Origin: a virus
Length of the DNA stretch: 20,251 nucleotides
Strand: one strand, 5' to 3'
Virus record (IMG/VR): IMGVR_UViG_3300045789_000319
Span: 1-20,251 of that record
The position numbers and the translations under genes were made by a program. This document shows positions 3,271-20,251 of this stretch, piece after piece. The notes below the pieces were generated by a model that saw only the letters and a list, made by a program, of their open reading frames with translations, ran no database searches and was not told the origin of the DNA. How positions within the stretch are numbered: position 1 is the stretch's first letter; each line of letters begins with the position of its first letter.

Positions 3271-4245
3271 ATGACTGTACCTACAAGCGTAAGAGAGCAA
3301 GCTAAACGAGCTGAAGAGCTTCAACAGCAATTAGTGAATCCATCGAAAGATGCTCACAAAGAACCAGAGATTAAGCAGGAAGAGCTGCCAAGTGCTCAAG
3401 AAATTGAACCCACTCCGGCAAAACAAGAGCAGGCACAACCGAAACCCGAAGAGCAACCCGCCGCACCCTCGCAGGAAGAAGATTATTTGTACTGGAGAAA
3501 CCGCTTTCAGGTTATCCAAGGTAAATACAATGCGGAAGTTCCGGCGCTGCGAAAACAGGTTTCCGAACTGGAGCAAGCTTTATCTGAAGCTAAAGCAAAT
3601 CAATCACAAAGCCCTGACCAATCGGCACCTCAGCAGGTTGCTAATGCTCTCGGTGATCTTTCACAAGATGAGATTGATGAGTTTGGCCCTGAGTTAATTG
3701 ACCTGGTTAAACGTATTGCTGGCGCACAGGTCAACCAGTCAAGCGAGAAAGTAGATAGCTTGAATGAGAAATTATCCCAGACTCAAGATGAGTTAAAGCA
3801 GATCAAGGATGATCAGCAGGATGATCAAACGTCACGATTTTGGGCCGGCGTTCAGCGCCTTGTGCCTGATTTTGTGTCGATCAATTCAAACCCTAACTTC
3901 CTTGCATGGCTTGACGGAGTTGATCCAACAACAGGCATACAGCGTCAATCTATCCTTAACAACCATCAAAAACGGCTAAATCCGCAAGGTGTTGAAGCCG
4001 TTTTTAACGCATTCAAGCAAACGGTTACTAATACACAAACGCGCAACCCTGAAGAACTGCAACAGCCCTCGCAATCTAACGGCTTCGAACCCAATAGCCC
4101 TAGTGCTAATGCTCGAATCTGGACGGGTGCAGAGATTAACCAGTTCTATAAAGATTGCTCGATGAATAAGTATAAACCGGAAGAAAAGAGAGCCATCGAA
4201 TTAGAGATATTCGAAGCCTCTAACACGGGGCGAGTCCGAAAATAA
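3271..4245 (+). CDS. Scaffolding protein (prohead assembly)
   Basis: This 324-residue acidic, Gln/Glu/Pro-rich protein lies directly between the portal and the capsid gene, the usual place for a scaffold. Residues 1-70 are low complexity (KPEEQPAAPSQEEDYLYW). Residues ~75-115 and ~165-200 are heptad-like coiled coils. A compact segment follows (FWAGVQRLVPDFVSINSNPN), then a disordered linker and a short charged C-terminal helix containing RIWTGAEINQFYKD, which would be the capsid-binding part by analogy with P22 gp8. The start is ATG 3271, chosen because GAGG at 3261-3264 sits six bases upstream. The frame is open back to a GTG at 3181, but that lies in the T-tract of the preceding terminator. 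The protein would be an internal template for capsid assembly and be lost on maturation. The role is inferred from composition and position. Confidence 0.82.
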   Translation: MTVPTSVREQAKRAEELQQQLVNPSKDAHKEPEIKQEELPSAQEIEPTPAKQEQAQPKPEEQPAAPSQEEDYLYWRNRFQVIQGKYNAEVPALRKQVSELEQALSEAKANQSQSPDQSAPQQVANALGDLSQDEIDEFGPELIDLVKRIAGAQVNQSSEKVDSLNEKLSQTQDELKQIKDDQQDDQTSRFWAGVQRLVPDFVSINSNPNFLAWLDGVDPTTGIQRQSILNNHQKRLNPQGVEAVFNAFKQTVTNTQTRNPEELQQPSQSNGFEPNSPSANARIWTGAEINQFYKDCSMNKYKPEEKRAIELEIFEASNTGRVRK

Positions 4246-4263
4246 CGGACTTGTTTATTTTTT
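4231..4263 (+). terminator. Terminator/attenuator overlapping the scaffold stop codon
   Basis: CGAGTCCG (4231-4238) pairs with CGGACTTG (4246-4253), one G·T included, around loop AAAATAA. It is followed by a U-rich run (4254-4263, interrupted once by A). The loop contains the scaffold stop codon TAA (4243-4245), so a ribosome finishing the scaffold would sit on the hairpin. It probably tunes scaffold versus capsid transcription; read-through must occur unless the capsid gene has its own promoter. Confidence 0.75.
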
Positions 4264-4292: not shown

Positions 4293-4442
4293 ATGGCAGG
4301 ACCAACTCGCGCATCGGGATACGCAGACGTATCCTCCTCAAGCACGTCAGGTTTCATCCCAGAAATCTGGTCGGGCAAAATGGTAGAGAAGCTTTACGCT
4401 TCTACTTGTTTCAGTGAAATCGCCAACACTGATTACGAGGGT
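4293..4442 (+). CDS. Major capsid protein, exon 1 (residues 1-50)
   Basis: The 5' exon of the capsid gene encodes 50 residues, from MAGPTRASGYADVSSSSTSG to NTDYEG. The start is ATG 4293 with a very strong SD, GAGGTGA (4280-4286), spaced six bases away, as expected for the most abundant virion protein. The reading frame closes at TAA 4443-4445, the first three bases of the intron. Without splicing only a 50-residue fragment would be made. The exon's last six bases, GAGGGT, form the intron's P1 helix with the internal guide. The joined protein reads DYEG|EIKQKGDTVNIR, a continuous motif typical of podoviral HK97-fold coat proteins. Confidence 0.92.
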
Positions 4443-4679
4443 TAATTTTAGCTCTCATTAAATCCCGTGAATTGCTGGGAAGCCCTTAGAGCCTTATCAC
4501 CACATCGAAGCCGGTAACGGCAAGCGCGAAGGTTTAAAAAGATAAGGATTGGGCAATCAGCAGCAAAGCACCCTGGGGACAGGGTGAATGTTCAACGACT
4601 AGGTCAAGGAGTCCAGTACGGACAGTAAAGGCCCACGAGTGCGGGACACTGCTTGCATAGATGGCATAGTAAGGTGATA

Positions 4680-4698
4680 CTGTTTATATAAACAGGAG
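4680..4698 (+). promoter_or_regulatory. Palindrome overlapping the SD of the intron endonuclease ORF
   Basis: CTGTTTATATAAACAG (4680-4695) is a perfect 16-base palindrome. Its last two bases are part of the endonuclease SD AGGAG (4694-4698), which lies six bases before ATG 4705. It could fold as a short hairpin that limits SD access, or serve as a dyad-type DNA site. Regulation is inference. Confidence 0.55.
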
Positions 4699-4704
4699 AA
4701 TGCT

Positions 4705-5286
4705 ATGGCAGCTAAAAAGTTTTTTATCACCAAAGATCAGCTTGAAGCTGATTATCAAAAATTGAATTCAATGCTAAAGATTGCCAAAAAATACGGTGTA
4801 TCAAAAAAACTGGTCATGAACTACATGAACAGGTACGGCATTGAAAGAAATAAACGCCCCAAATGGAGTGATACTGTTGACAAAATCAGCGCTCACTTCA
4901 AGGAAGGTATTACGACGGCAGAGGTAGCAGAAGAAACGGGATATTCTCTTTCTTCTGTTCTCATGGTTGCCAAGAAGGTCGGCTTTAAGCTAACCGATAC
5001 TTACCATACAGGCGAGATAATCACTCATAATGGATACAGGATGATCCCTGCCCCACTTGATCATCCTGGAGCCGATAGTAAAGGCTACATAAGAGAGCAC
5101 CGATTAATAATGGAAAAGAAGCTTGGCAGGTATTTAAAACCTGACGAGATTGTTCATCATATTAATCACAACAAGCTCGACAATGATCCAAATAATCTTG
5201 AGCTGACAACACTGGCCGATCATACACGCCATCACCATGTCGGTAAGACTGGTAGAGGGCCTGATTTAAAGCCTAGAAAGCGCTAG
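4705..5286 (+). CDS. Intron-encoded HNH homing endonuclease
   Basis: This 193-residue protein has a C-terminal HNH nuclease domain (about residues 106-178). Visible motif parts are YIREHRLIM (E131-H132), IVHHINHN (H151, H152, N154), and DNDPNNLELTT with the terminal N163/N164. A His-rich end (HTRHHH) follows. The N-terminal half looks like two helix-turn-helix units (about residues 14-46 and 56-93), probably for DNA binding. The size and layout recall the HNH enzymes of phage introns such as SPO1 I-HmuI, whose ORF also sits in P8. It would cut intronless capsid alleles near the insertion site and drive intron spread. AGGAG at 4694-4698 gives a well-placed SD. The stop TAG (5284-5286) overlaps the 3' strand of P8, so ORF and ribozyme share bases. 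The specific target site is not determined. Confidence 0.94.
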   Translation: MAAKKFFITKDQLEADYQKLNSMLKIAKKYGVSKKLVMNYMNRYGIERNKRPKWSDTVDKISAHFKEGITTAEVAEETGYSLSSVLMVAKKVGFKLTDTYHTGEIITHNGYRMIPAPLDHPGADSKGYIREHRLIMEKKLGRYLKPDEIVHHINHNKLDNDPNNLELTTLADHTRHHHVGKTGRGPDLKPRKR

Positions 5287-5375
5287 CAGTGAAGATATAG
5301 TCTGGACTATCGGGAAACCGGTAGGAGCCTGGATAAAGAGCCAGGACGACACCCGAAAGGGTTGAAACAAAATCG

Positions 5376-6164
5376 GAAATTAAACAAAAAGGCGATACCG
5401 TAAACATCCGAACCACGCCAAGTATCACAATCAATGATTATGAAATTGGTATGGATCTGGATTATGAAACCCCTACGTCCGAAAAAGTTCAGTTGCAGGT
5501 CAACAAAGCTAAGTACTTTGGCTTTAAATGTAACAGTGTTGACGAATACCAATCTGACATTGATTTAATGGATGACTGGTCGGCGGATGCAGGCAAGCAA
5601 ATGTCGATTCAGATTGACCGAGATATTCTTGGTTATATCTACGCAGATGCGGCAGCTGAAAACGCAGGCTTAACCGCAGGCAAAATCTCAGGCGCTTATA
5701 ACATGGGTGTTACTGGCACCCCCGTTGAAATCACAAAGAGCAACGTTATCGACTTTATTGTTGATACAAGCTCAGTGCTTTACGAGCAGGATGTTCCTGA
5801 AGAGCATCGCTGGATTGTGTTACCTGTTTGGATGTGTAACTTAATCAAGAAATCGGAGCTTAAAGACGCTTCAATGTCTGGTGATGGCACATCTATGATG
5901 CGTAACGGGCGCATTGGCATAATTGATCAGTACACAGTGTACTCATCTAACAATATGTCTCACGTCACGGACGGTTCCGCAAAAGTAGCAAATGTCGTAT
6001 TTGGTCACAAAAAGGCGCTTACATTTGCGTCTCAAATGACTGAAATGGATACGCTGCCTAACCAGAAGGACTTTGGTAAGTTGGTTCGCGGCCTTAACGT
6101 ATTTGGATCAAAAGTAATTGATTCAAGCGCGATTGGTCACGGCTACTGCACTAAAGGCGCCTAA
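5376..6164 (+). CDS. Major capsid protein, exon 2 (residues 51-312)
   Basis: The 3' exon encodes 262 residues starting EIKQKGDTVNIRTTP. The frame is open upstream of the splice site only as intron sequence. The internal ATG at 5451 is not a proper start, since the conserved capsid sequence begins before it. The joined 312-aa product fits podoviral HK97-fold coat proteins. It has an N-terminal arm in exon 1, then an E-loop/P-domain-like region (ITINDYEIGMDLDYETP), a spine-helix-like segment (DDWSADAGKQMSIQIDRDIL), an A-domain-like part (PEEHRWIVLPVWMCNLIKKS) and a C-terminal beta region (DTLPNQKDFGKLVRGLNVFG). It would form the icosahedral shell around the scaffold. The stop (6162-6164) lies 16 bases before the next terminator stem. 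There is no linked decoration or protease gene. Fold assignment is inferred from sequence pattern and gene order. Confidence 0.9.
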   Translation, partial: EIKQKGDTVNIRTTPSITINDYEIGMDLDYETPTSEKVQLQVNKAKYFGFKCNSVDEYQSDIDLMDDWSADAGKQMSIQIDRDILGYIYADAAAENAGLTAGKISGAYNMGVTGTPVEITKSNVIDFIVDTSSVLYEQDVPEEHRWIVLPVWMCNLIKKSELKDASMSGDGTSMMRNGRIGIIDQYTVYSSNNMSHVTDGSAKVANVVFGHKKALTFASQMTEMDTLPNQKDFGKLVRGLNVFGSKVIDSSAIGHGYCTKGA

Positions 6165-6176
6165 CCACCCCCCCAC

Positions 6177-6210
6177 CAAAAGGGCTGCTTCGATAAGCAG
6201 CCCTTTTTTA
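6177..6210 (+). terminator. Strong terminator after the capsid gene
   Basis: AGGGCTGCTT (6181-6190) pairs perfectly over ten bases with AAGCAGCCCT (6195-6204) around loop CGAT, then a T-tract (6205-6209). Flanking A4 (6178-6181) and T-tract extend the pairing, so it could work on both strands. It is the strongest hairpin-plus-T signal in the window. Confidence 0.95.
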
Positions 6211-6230: not shown

Positions 6231-6617
6231 ATGAACAGTATTTTAAATTTACTCCTTGAAGCTCTTGAGGGCGCAGATCGCAAGTCGCTTAACGAAATAG
6301 CACTTGAAGAATTTGAAAAAGACTACAGCAAGGTGAAGATGAAAAACGATGACATTCGTGCCGAACTGATCGCGCTTGCTAATAAAAAATATGGCGAATC
6401 GGATGAAAATGAGTCTAACGAAGACTCTGAAGCAGAAGCAGAAGCAGAAGCAGAAGCAGAAGCAAAGGCTGCGTTTGCCGCAAAGGTTCGAGAAGAAGCT
6501 ATTGCAAAGGCGGCAGCAAAACGCAAGGTCCGAAAACTAAAACATCGAAAGACTGGCCGTATTATGACGTGGACCCCAGCGCTGGCGAAGCTTGACGATC
6601 TGGACGAGGTTGAATAA
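6231..6617 (+). CDS. Small acidic/basic structural-region protein with (EA)6 repeat
   Basis: This 128-residue protein is encoded first after the capsid terminator. The start is ATG 6231 with GAGG (6222-6225) five bases before it. The N-terminal ~60 residues are helical (LNLLLEALEGADRKSLNEIA). The middle is a Glu/Asp-rich then EA-repeat helix (residues 60-78), encoded by six exact GAAGCA copies. A Lys/Arg-rich helix follows. The end has the pattern KHRKTGRIMTWTPALAKLDD, like the 'GR.f.wT.aLak..dm' motif seen in small proteins near head-completion genes of other podovirus-like phages (from memory). Function is not recognised. The charge-segregated coiled coil and the position suggest a minor head or connector component. 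Confidence 0.75.
   Translation: MNSILNLLLEALEGADRKSLNEIALEEFEKDYSKVKMKNDDIRAELIALANKKYGESDENESNEDSEAEAEAEAEAEAKAAFAAKVREEAIAKAAAKRKVRKLKHRKTGRIMTWTPALAKLDDLDEVE
6429..6464 (+). repeat. Hexanucleotide microsatellite (GAAGCA)6
   Basis: Six exact tandem GAAGCA units encode (Glu-Ala)6 at residues 67-78 of the gene at 6231. Unit length is a multiple of three, so slippage would change the length without a frameshift. Confidence 0.97.
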
Positions 6618-16952: not shown

Positions 16953-19900
16953 ATGTCTGATTATGATTTCTCTGATGCGGTTAATCCGTTTGATCAGAAT
17001 AATTACTCTCGTCCTGAAGAAGTTGATTATGACTTTTCTGATGCGATTAATCCGTTCACGGATAAGCAGTCCGACACTACCCAATCAAAAGGTCTTTCTA
17101 TACCGGAAAAGATGCAAGCTGAAGATGACTACAACGAAAGAACAGGGGATAGTTTCTTTGGTCGATTAGGTGCAAACGCGGAGATCGCCGGACTTAACAC
17201 CTTAAACACGATGGATGGTGCTCGCCTCAGTGAATATGGCGAGCTGCTCTCCTCATATAACGAGAAAGATCTCGAATCAAATCCTGAGCTTCGCAACGAG
17301 TACGCAACAACAAGAGGTAACTTTGAGAAGACACTGAAGGATATTGGTGATAGGCAGCAGGAAATACAGTCACTTCCTCAGCGCCCAGAAACGCAAAGAA
17401 TGCTTAATCCAGAGGGTGACGTTTGGTACGAACAAGCTGGTAACTCTATTGATGCATTTACGGATGATCCGTTTGGTGTAGTTGGTGATGTAACAGTTCA
17501 AAACCTACCAGGAATGGCTGCATCTATGGGTATGTTCATTGCCGGTAAAGGAGCAGGTCTAGGAAATAAAGCGTCTGCTGGAATGGCTGGCGCAACTAGC
17601 GGCCTGCAGGAGTCATACAATAACTACATCAAACTAAGACAAGACGGCCTTGATCACGATACGGCATGGGAGAAATCGGTAGTTAATGGCAGTGTTGTTG
17701 GTCTGCTTGACGCTGTAAGCTTCGGTACTGCGGGCGGCACTGTTCGCCGCATGGCTGGCGGAACCATTCCGTCTAAGGCTGTGGCTACTGCGAAAGAAAC
17801 ACTAACACAAGGCGCTTTAGGTGCGGCAGGTGCGGCAGGCGGAAAATACGCCAGCAACCAAGAGATTGAAGTTGGCGAAGTTATGGGTGAATTTGTTGGT
17901 GAGGCTGGCGGTGCGCCACTAACAATGATTACAACCAAAGTTGATCCAGTATCAAGAAGCAAAACTTCAGTAGACGAAGGGCTTAACGAACTAAGGGCGG
18001 AGCAAGAAAAGGTCAATCGACAGCAAAGAACAGGCGTTATAAGCGGCGAAGATCTTGGTCTAAAAATACCTGAACAGCAGGATTATAGTGACTATGACCG
18101 ACCATCTGTTTCCCGAAAGCAAAATCTTGGACCGATGCCTCAGCGAGGCCGAAGCGAAATTCTTTCTGATATTGGCATTGCTCGCCGCATGGGGTTTGAG
18201 GAAGAAGCGCAAGCACTAAGTCAGGCGCGCGAGCTTTACATGCAAGCAGATCAGGCAAAGTCTGCAGGAAATGAAGGCCTTGCTGTCGAATTGATTAATC
18301 AGGCCAACCAGCTTCATATGTCTGCTATCGACACATCGCCACGAATGGCAGAAACGCTGGACAACTTACCAGTACCGTATGTAAGTGAAGGTGAGGTTCA
18401 GGGTGGAGGGTTATCAGTACCTGAAAGCCAACCAAACTTCACGATGCCAGAAGATCCAATACAGGGCCAAGCAAGAGAGGTCGATCCAATAGATAATCGC
18501 CTCACACAAGACAATACGAATAAGCTACCGCAAGGCACCGGCCAGATAAACTTAGGCCGCGAACACACGCCTCCAGAATCCATACCTGCGGATTCTATTT
18601 ATGACGGCGTTGGTGAAAACATCACAACGCGCCAAGCACCAAACGGCTTAGCGCTTCCTAATCAGTCATCGGTATCGCAAGAGCAAATCATAGACCAGCA
18701 GCGCGCTGATAACCCTGCAGCAATCCGCAAACCAACAATTGAACAGATAGATCAAGCAGCGCTAGAAACGGCAGAGGCACCAACAGAGGCCCAGATAGAA
18801 GCGGATAACTATAAGAAGGGTCGCATTAAAATCGCCGGTCTAAATATTGCCATTGAAAACCGCAAAGGGGGAACTCGATCTGGCACGGACGAGTCCGGTA
18901 AAAAATGGACTTCAACAATGGCCCATCATTACGGAGATATTAAGGGCTACAAGGGCGCAGACGGTGATGATATTGATGTGTTCATTGGTGACAATCCAGA
19001 ATCCAACCAGGTGTTTATTGTTGACCAGGTTGACCCGAAGACCGGAGTGTTCGATGAGCACAAGGTGATGATGGGATTTAATTCTCTTGATGAGGCTAAA
19101 GCCGGATATCTCGCAAACTATGAGGATAATTGGCAGGGTGTCGGGGCTGTCACCGCAATACCTGAGTCTGATTTTAAGCAGTGGCTCAAAGGTGATACAA
19201 CCAGGCCTTACAGACTGCAACCTAAGCCTGCGGAAGGTCTAGTGCTTCGACCAAATGGGTTGCCATATAAAACCGAGAACGGGGCTAAGTTTAATCAGGC
19301 TTTCCGTAACAACAAGGGAGCGAAGGTTGTTAGGGTGCCAAACGGCTACGCCATACAGTTGCCCGATGAAAGCAAGAAAGCAGAAACAGCAGCTAACGCG
19401 AGAAAAAAAGCAAAAGCAATATACACTCGCGATCCAGATCCTCAGAATGACGACTTAATGGCTGCAATTGCGTTAGGCGGTGGTATTCTCAGAGAGTACG
19501 CTGAAGGCGTTGATCCTGCAGATTATAGCCGAAGAGCCGCAGGCATTCGTTTGGTGTTCCCGAAAAGTAGCGGGCTTTCGCTTGATGAAATGACGGAGTA
19601 CTTGCGTCAATTTGGCTATGTTCAATCCGTTGAAGAGCTTCAATCTAAGCTTGATAGCTCGCTGCGCGGAGAGGAAGTGCTAACTCCTGAAGCACAAATG
19701 AGCAAAATGGATGAGCTTCAAGCTGAGTTAGATCAGGAGCATGCGCCAGTTGTTGAAGGACAAACCAGTGAAGAGAGTTTTCTTTCTGTTGCAGCGGAAG
19801 AAGCGCGACAGGCTGGGGTTGATGAAAATAGAATCAAAGCCATCATCTATGCTAATGTTGACGAAGGCGAACTAGCGGCAGCAATGGAGCTGAGTAATGA

Positions 19901-20251
19901 AATCCAAAGAATACAAGCCGAAGGGCTACCGACCGGAAATGGTGCTGAAAGGGGCGGACAAGCTGAAGAAGGATTCCCAGAAGGGCAACCAACAACACCA
20001 GAGTCAGTCTGGGGAGCAGAAGAAGATCTCTTAACCTCCTATTCTGAGGAGGATTTGCAGGCGCGCGAAGCAAGTGAACAAGCTGAGCGCGACCGTCAAT
20101 CTGCCGCTGATTCTAAAGCTGAATCTAAAGCGCAGGCCGATTTAGAAGCCAATGACTTTACCTTGTCAGGATCAAACCGTCCTGCCGATATTGCCGCTTC
20201 CCGCGGTCAGAATGATATGTTTGGTCAGTCAAACCAAGACACTAAATACAA
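16953..20251 (+). CDS. Giant polyvalent ejection-type protein, 3' truncated, with pyrophosphatase-like domain
   Basis: The frame is open from ATG 16953 (SD CCGGAG 16942-16947) to the window edge: 1,099 codons, no stop. Residues 3-13 and 25-35 are a duplicated DYDFSDA[V/I]NPF motif. Residues ~180-330 are Gly/Ala-rich and amphipathic. Residues ~330-610 are a polar linker. Residues ~620-748 match the inorganic-pyrophosphatase-like domain of phage polyvalent proteins: IENRKGG (E635, K638), HYGDIKG (Y660), DGDDIDV (D670, D672, D675, the metal-binding triad of family I pyrophosphatases), then KTGVFDEHKVMMGF. Residues ~764-805 and ~840-889 are further small modules (LPYKTENGAKF; PADYSRRAAGIRLVFP). 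Residues ~1069-1090 carry LSGSNRPADIAASRGQNDMF, a recurrent polyvalent-protein motif. Known family proposal: multi-domain proteins carried in the capsid and injected to act on the host. Enzyme activity here is inference. Confidence 0.9.
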   Translation, partial: MSDYDFSDAVNPFDQNNYSRPEEVDYDFSDAINPFTDKQSDTTQSKGLSIPEKMQAEDDYNERTGDSFFGRLGANAEIAGLNTLNTMDGARLSEYGELLSSYNEKDLESNPELRNEYATTRGNFEKTLKDIGDRQQEIQSLPQRPETQRMLNPEGDVWYEQAGNSIDAFTDDPFGVVGDVTVQNLPGMAASMGMFIAGKGAGLGNKASAGMAGATSGLQESYNNYIKLRQDGLDHDTAWEKSVVNGSVVGLLDAVSFGTAGGTVRRMAGGTIPSKAVATAKETLTQGALGAAGAAGGKYASNQEIEVGEVMGEFVGEAGGAPLTMITTKVDPVSRSKTSVDEGLNELRAEQEKVNRQQRTGVISGEDLGLKIPEQQDYSDYDRPSVSRKQNLGPMPQRGRSEILSDIGIARRMGFEEEAQALSQARELYMQADQAKSAGNEGLAVELINQANQLHMSAIDTSPRMAETLDNLPVPYVSEGEVQGGGLSVPESQPNFTMPEDPIQGQAREVDPIDNRLTQDNTNKLPQGTGQINLGREHTPPESIPADSIYDGVGENITTRQAPNGLALPNQSSVSQEQIIDQQRADNPAAIRKPTIEQIDQAALETAEAPTEAQIEADNYKKGRIKIAGLNIAIENRKGGTRSGTDESGKKWTSTMAHHYGDIKGYKGADGDDIDVFIGDNPESNQVFIVDQVDPKTGVFDEHKVMMGFNSLDEAKAGYLANYEDNWQGVGAVTAIPESDFKQWLKGDTTRPYRLQPKPAEGLVLRPNGLPYKTENGAKFNQAFRNNKGAKVVRVPNGYAIQLPDESKKAETAANARKKAKAIYTRDPDPQNDDLMAAIALGGGILREYAEGVDPADYSRRAAGIRLVFPKSSGLSLDEMTEYLRQFGYVQSVEELQSKLDSSLRGEEVLTPEAQMSKMDELQAELDQEHAPVVEGQTSEESFLSVAAEEARQAGVDENRIKAIIYANVDEGELAAAMELSNEIQRIQAEGLPTGNGAERGGQAEEGFPEGQPTTPESVWGAEEDLLTSYSEEDLQAREASEQAERDRQSAADSKAESKAQADLEANDFTLSGSNRPADIAASRGQNDMFGQSNQDTKY
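16959..17057 (+). repeat. Duplicated N-terminal motif in the giant protein
   Basis: Two copies of DYDFSDA[V/I]NPF are encoded at 16959-16991 and 17025-17057, 66 bases (22 residues) apart. Both copies also share an acidic context. DNA differences between the copies are mostly synonymous changes. Confidence 0.9.

Follow-up and report, generated by a model that had tools for sequence, protein, structure and literature searches.

How can a phage make its major capsid protein when the gene for it is closed by a stop codon after only 50 codons, and what is the 933-nt stretch that begins there? The question is raised by the window, that is, the whole 20,251-nt stretch of viral DNA analysed here (IMG/VR record IMGVR_UViG_3300045789_000319, positions 1 to 20,251). 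We propose that the gene is almost certainly occupied by an intact, mobile group IA intron, which parasitises the invariant DYEG/EI motif (the slash marks the insertion site) of an HK97-fold major capsid gene. The parts of the interrupted gene, and the hairpins on either side of it, are as follows:

4228..4256, plus strand: terminator-like hairpin upstream of the capsid gene (consensus match)
4293..4442, plus strand: exon 1 of the major capsid gene, codons 1–50, the last two being GAG GGU (the intronless relative L001 aligns unbroken over 1–311)
4443..5375, plus strand: group I intron of 933 nt with a terminal G (Rfam RF00028; covariation over 26 same-site introns)
4443..4445, plus strand: in-frame UAA abutting exon 1 (stop codons counted over 28 introns)
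5376..6164, plus strand: exon 2 of the major capsid gene, codons 51–312 and the stop (Pfam and PHROG matches)
6178..6207, plus strand: strong terminator-like hairpin downstream of the capsid gene, 13 pairs and a T tail

Joined, exons 4293–4442 and 5376–6164 translate in the same frame into an uninterrupted protein of 312 aa. Gly50 (GGU) is the last codon of exon 1 with UAA immediately 3′ of it, and unspliced capsid RNA encodes a 50-aa stub only. An intein was rejected as the explanation, as the UAA right behind exon 1 is joined by many in-frame stops across the insert. A preliminary description of this DNA had placed the splice sites at 4442 and 5376, with an intron of 933 nt and a product of 312 aa, and all of these coordinates proved correct when checked against the sequence.

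Pfam assigns the joined protein to Phage_capsid_4 (3.9e-10) and PHROG to family 267, major head protein (6e-57), and by both collections the genes flanking it (portal, structural proteins) are phage genes. The closest intronless relative, L001, is 87% identical, a figure equalled by a protein from a Neptuniibacter MAG (L261), and further intronless copies occur in Halomonas, Salinicola, Pseudomonas, Marinomonas and many others. A structure model of the L001 protein (34 sequences, mean pLDDT 80) has the HK97 fold, with Z scores of 17.8 to HRP29, 16.3 to Che8 and 13.8 to HK97. By our reading of its modelled secondary structure, codons 50/51 would lie behind the N-terminal helix and ahead of the long E-loop region. 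Residues I43, T46, Y48, E49 and G50 account for five of the 14 positions that are invariant across 34 capsid relatives. The capsid protein is continuous across the site at 127 loci, where the junction reads NTDYEG/EI with few exceptions; the comparison of the 312-aa protein with intronless relatives, which had been put forward as a check on the splice sites, therefore runs unbroken over DYEG/EI, and none of the 127 loci naturally holds the intervening residues. No insert at codon 50/51 appeared among 46 capsid relatives from a genome search, and in the isolate phage collection 371 of 373 capsid relatives match over at least 80% in one place, i.e., contiguously.

Several features of the surrounding DNA may be recorded here. 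Exon 1 (4293–4442) is about 90–94% identical to L001, against ~60–66% some 200–400 nt upstream and 70–80% downstream, and synonymous divergence from L001 is 0.23 in exon 1 and 1.9 in exon 2; being far lower in exon 1, it indicates that a recombination boundary may sit at the insertion site. The small gene directly behind the capsid gene (6231–6617) holds six perfect copies of GAAGCA at 6429–6464, and a change in copy number of this repeat would preserve the frame. An open frame of at least 1099 aa (16953–20249) runs off the record and contains a domain that matches Pfam InPase (9e-57) and PHROG 10089, a DarB-like antirestriction family.

As regards the nature of the insert, a cmscan of the window against all 4227 Rfam families gave a single match above the gathering score, to RF00028 (4433–5324, plus strand, full model 1–253, E 1.2e-12, 58.1 bits for a cut-off of 50). 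The search with this model had likewise been proposed as a check, and the helices claimed at the outset (P1 with a U-G at the 5′ site, P10, P3–P8 and P9) do form in the window, all on the plus strand:

4437..4456, plus strand: P1, exon GAGGGU (4437–4442) with guide GCUCUC (4451–4456), U-G at the splice site (U4442–G4451)
4443–4449/5376–5382, plus strand: P10, 7 bp
4463–4469/4640–4646, plus strand: P3, enclosing P4, P5, P6a, P7.1 and P7.2 (4463..4646)
4472–4478/4557–4563, plus strand: P4, inside P3
4482–4485/4551–4554, plus strand: P5, inside P3
4569–4575/4580–4586, plus strand: P6a, inside P3
4597–4601/5298–5302, plus strand: P7, the catalytic helix (130 of 130 cells paired over the family)
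4602–4605/4630–4633, plus strand: P7.1, inside P3
4611–4614/4620–4623, plus strand: P7.2, inside P3
4647–4653/5285–5291, plus strand: P8, whose loop contains the endonuclease gene
5307–5313/5318–5324, plus strand: P9, with a GAAA loop
5328–5332/5341–5345, plus strand: P9.1
5351–5354/5359–5362, plus strand: P9.2

Using an alignment of 26 introns from the same site, with the endonuclease gene taken out, we compared each helix with controls in which the partners were slid by 1–3 nt. The paired share is 97% for P3, 98% for P4, 92% for P6a, 100% for P7, 94% for P7.1, 99% for P9 and 90% for P9.1, as against at most 70% in the slid controls. It is 69% for P7.2 and 67% for P8, the latter being near its controls (maximum 64%) because the gene-bearing loop aligns poorly. 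Compensatory changes are found in 2/6 pairs of P1, 6/7 of P3, 7/7 of P6a, 2/5 of P7 (both in L135), 4/4 of P7.1, 6/7 of P9 and 5/5 of P9.1. In P1 the exon and the guide covary, with CAGGGU/GCCCUG in L085 and GAAGGU/GCCUUC in L128, L216 and L233, while the splice-site U-G is present in 26/26 aligned introns and the terminal base of the window intron is G5375. P10 has 5–7 bp in several introns and is short in about half of the relatives; its pairing summed over introns is 90, above every one of 500 shuffles (66.6 ± 5.4). As P7.1 and P7.2 lie between P7 and the 3′ strand of P3, the predicted fold assigns the intron to subgroup IA. Covariance model, covariation and intronless relatives hence agree that the major capsid gene contains a group I intron which is complete and has exactly defined splice sites. 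From sequence comparison, the presence of such an intron inside the gene is near certain, and its active splicing is very likely.

The site is shared. We found 28 distinct introns (41 sequences, the window included), all at the identical codon of DYEG/EI; the other phages bearing them share about 32–68% capsid protein identity with the window. They came from a first capsid search (L023, L070), from two DNA patterns and from a search with the endonuclease alignment; the patterns were derived from members of this same family, and relatives elsewhere may have been missed. Gly50 is encoded by GGU in 28/28 intron alleles as against 28/85 of the empty alleles (Fisher 3e-11), a codon choice that the U-G at the splice site imposes; the count is somewhat biased in that some loci were found by a pattern containing the junction, those found through the endonuclease or the core pattern having GGU as well. 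In 21/28 the intron opens with an in-frame stop, and in 28/28 one occurs within six codons, as compared with 0/28 at the first codon of the other two frames; stops of this type are described in a review as keeping ribosomes off the intron (PMC3073962). Nine of the 28 introns are only 303–420 nt long and lack a full endonuclease gene; L147 and L158 retain remnants of one, and L070 has a short open frame resembling one.

One further possibility is that the intron entered the capsid gene as a fragment fused to it during metagenome assembly. The record is indeed a metagenomic or viral contig fragment, but the same junctions occur on independent contigs and the splice-site pairing covaries with the exon, and we regard such a chimera as practically discounted.

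Some of these loci carry other insertions. A capsid-gene insert at residues 121–124 is present in L117 (6173–5154, minus strand), L096, L190 (586–1668), L140, L175, L185 and L206; the L117 and L190 copies code for a protein that has a pair of LAGLIDADG-like motifs, and the insert of L190, at capsid residues 121–122, matched no Rfam family. A group I intron (57.8 bits) near capsid residue 292 of L140 (8224–8541, minus strand) and L190 (2138–2455, plus strand) marks another position at which this gene family takes inserts.

The main clue to the mobility of the intron is the gene in its P8 loop, which the preliminary description had left unmentioned:

4705..5286, plus strand: gene for an HNH homing endonuclease of 193 aa, with a pair of helix-turn-helix units at the N-terminus and the HNH at the C-terminus
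4665..4707, plus strand: predicted hairpin over the endonuclease start, outer stem 4665–4671/4701–4707, inner palindrome CTGTTTATATAAACAG at 4680–4685/4690–4695

Its product matches Pfam HNH_3 at the C-terminus (3.3e-11, 43 bits, cut-off 24.8) as well as PHROG HNH families, and H151, H152, N160, N164, H173 and H177 are invariant over 22 endonuclease sequences. A structure model predicts two N-terminal helix-turn-helix units and an HNH fold, and the best homing-endonuclease match of this model is I-HmuI (1u3e), with a probability of 0.99 but an E of 0.09; a PDB sequence search with the endonuclease returned helix-turn-helix regions only and not I-HmuI. Purifying selection on the gene is strong (dN/dS about 0.08, window/L023), and its stop codon overlaps the 3′ strand of P8. 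The outer stem of the predicted hairpin would include the endonuclease AUG, and the Shine-Dalgarno (4694–4698) lies partly within the inner palindrome (4680–4695). This hairpin has a z of −3.4 in the window and a mean z of −2.6 over 12 same-site introns, between which the hairpins differ in sequence, with a few weak cases and one intron without a hairpin.

The relatives of this enzyme lead back to the same site, as 27 of its 28 best relatives (L208–L235; L212 could not be judged) sit beside a capsid gene with a break near residue 50/51. No capsid match lies beside the weaker relatives (L236–L260), which have mainly the HNH part in common. Full-length relatives in the isolate phage collection reach about 30% identity at best, and a search of 391 genomes from the order of the Halomonas relative gave one match, to the HNH part only. 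With the intron itself, the isolate phage collection returned only a short conserved core, mostly outside annotated capsid genes and never covering 80%. Plasmids returned only short fragments. The endonuclease gene runs antisense to the capsid gene in L214, L228 and L231, and positions imply the same for L221 and L230. An antisense HNH gene was also noted in L215 and L229 and, by position, in L222, both orientations thus occurring in the lineage. In L087 the first 199 intron nt are 86% identical to those of the window, the endonuclease 41% and the capsid protein 42%; intron core and endonuclease may therefore have separate histories.

These observations allow us to consider whether the intron is a splicing-dead relic, with the capsid gene a pseudogene and the phage fragment defective. 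Purifying selection on the capsid gene is strong across the interruption (dN/dS about 0.07 for window/L001 and 0.04 for L023/L004), which argues that the intron is not dead unless a second capsid copy lies outside the fragment, as it could, the record being a virus fragment of 20 kb (20,251 bases). However, the core helices are all intact, both exons are open and the value against L001 means that selection still acts on the joined protein, the endonuclease frame is likewise under selection, and the same architecture recurs in L023 and L193. We consider a relic very improbable.

The distribution of the intron is that of a mobile element. In a capsid tree of 113 rows the intron state changes at least 18 times, 10 of the changes being forced by well-supported branches, and carriers have close intronless sisters (window/L001, L023/L004, L193/L003 and L274, L207/L068). 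Patchy presence, intronless sister alleles and copies with and without the endonuclease gene are all found, and homing by the HNH enzyme is likely when judged from this distribution. Distances between intron cores are correlated with those between capsid proteins (Mantel r 0.48, p 0.0015), which points to much spread among related phages or to partly vertical descent, and high identity of the core may reflect constraint. Outlier pairs are L194/L211, with 88% nt identity in the core and 48% aa identity in the capsid protein, and L070/L194 (81% and 44%); supported branches in the intron tree are too few for a formal test of incongruence. A scan for exon co-conversion in L023/L004 gave a raised number of differences between −75 and +300 relative to the site (4/200), which is suggestive only, and no such signal was seen in window/L001.

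An alternative is that the element is kept for its benefit, splicing efficiency being tuned by growth state or translation to gate capsid output. The terminator-like hairpins on both sides suggest that the capsid gene would be transcribed as a unit of its own (an excess of promoters was not found), the stop codon couples the splice site to translation, and splicing of T4 introns is reported to depend on translation and growth state. Nevertheless, close sister phages do without the intron, the 46 relatives from the genome search showed no insert at the site, and patchiness with loss is what a parasite predicts. Such a device is improbable. The preliminary description had held that intron activity gates capsid supply: this is trivially so, in that unspliced RNA gives the stub, but we saw no sign of regulation and the intron is dispensable, as its close intronless sisters indicate.

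The parasitic intron, by comparison, is supported by repeated patchy occupancy, by copies with, without and with degenerate endonuclease genes, and by purifying selection on both genes. The steps that we propose (ribosome stop, splicing, endonuclease translation and homing) are inferred from the anatomy of the locus together with established group I and T4 biology. Ribosomes would translate exon 1 and halt at the UAA by the 5′ splice site, and with that halt the ribozyme would stay free of ribosomes. The RNA would then fold, an exogenous G would attack after U4442, and exon 1 would be ligated to exon 2 at G5375/G5376, giving the mRNA for the 312-aa capsid protein. Unspliced or excised RNA may occasionally be translated into the 193-aa HNH endonuclease, its yield limited by the hairpin over the ribosome-binding site and AUG. 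In a mixed infection this enzyme would cut or nick intronless capsid alleles at the same motif, and repair would copy the intron in.

It is also conceivable, though we hold it to be doubtful, that the endonuclease is a weapon of competition, which lowers the yield of co-infecting intronless phages by cutting their capsid gene. Suitable targets exist, since close sister phages have this essential gene in its intronless form, and there is a precedent in the intron endonuclease of PhiPA3 (PMC11620839). This role would, however, add to homing rather than replace it. A wider proposal, which we put forward only tentatively, is that a dedicated intron/HNH lineage tracks DYEG/EI, where the E-loop region begins, through tailed phages from many bacterial groups and in both gene orientations, and may in addition serve against the capsid gene of co-infecting intronless phages.

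Comparison with known systems places the mobile intron described here in context. In mycobacteriophage LittleE (Cluster J) the major capsid gene intron was shown by RT-PCR and protein sequencing to be spliced in vivo (PMC3706429). It resembles the present case in combining a probable group I intron and an endonuclease gene in the major capsid gene, with a U before the intron, a G at its end and intronless relatives (PMC3706429). The LittleE intron differs in its length of 819 bp and in lying in another HK97-type capsid protein (PMC3706429), and its endonuclease is LAGLIDADG-like and antisense (PMC3706429), whereas the window enzyme is of the HNH type. Recurrence at a single site across distant phages was not reported for LittleE, in contrast to the 28 distinct introns at one site here. 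Lactococcal phage Tuc2009 also has a group I intron in a capsid gene, as cited in PMC3706429; the likeness drawn here is one of description, and as far as known its host clade and site are different. The td, nrdB and nrdD introns of T4 (I-TevI, I-TevII, I-TevIII) similarly carry an endonuclease gene in a peripheral loop of a group I intron (PMC2988022), with a hairpin over the endonuclease ribosome-binding site (as for I-TevI) and, close to the 5′ splice site, a stop codon in frame (PMC2988022). However, they reside in nucleotide-metabolism genes, with I-TevI being a GIY-YIG enzyme encoded in the P6 loop (PMC2988022), as opposed to a capsid gene, the P8 loop and HNH in the window. I-HmuI, from the DNA-polymerase intron of SPO1, is likewise a homing endonuclease of the HNH type from a group I intron of a phage, but correspondence is expected in the HNH part only (84 aligned columns), as the window enzyme has two helix-turn-helix units before the HNH. 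The PhiPA3 enzyme is intron-encoded and acts on a co-infecting relative (PMC11620839), for the window phage a candidate role only, and differs in belonging to a jumbo phage and in its target gene (PMC11620839).

A capsid host gene had at first been called less common, with no verdict on whether the present case is described. The former has to be qualified, since introns of capsid genes are already known from LittleE and Tuc2009; as to the latter, neither this allele nor its site-specific lineage turned up in the literature consulted, which included few subscription journals, or in the phage genome records searched, and no description of a recurrent intron at the DYEG/EI capsid motif was found there. 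What was not found described is therefore one intron/HNH lineage repeatedly at an invariant capsid motif, capsid-gene introns as such having been known before.

Gene finders split capsid genes that bear such introns, and capsid-based surveys of uncultivated phages will consequently miss or truncate them. The locus provides a clear and comparatively well-supported case of a homing intron in the gene for the virion's most abundant protein, the production of which requires highly efficient splicing. Carriers and non-carriers at the same codon, with and without the endonuclease gene, form a natural series for the study of homing, loss and phage interference.
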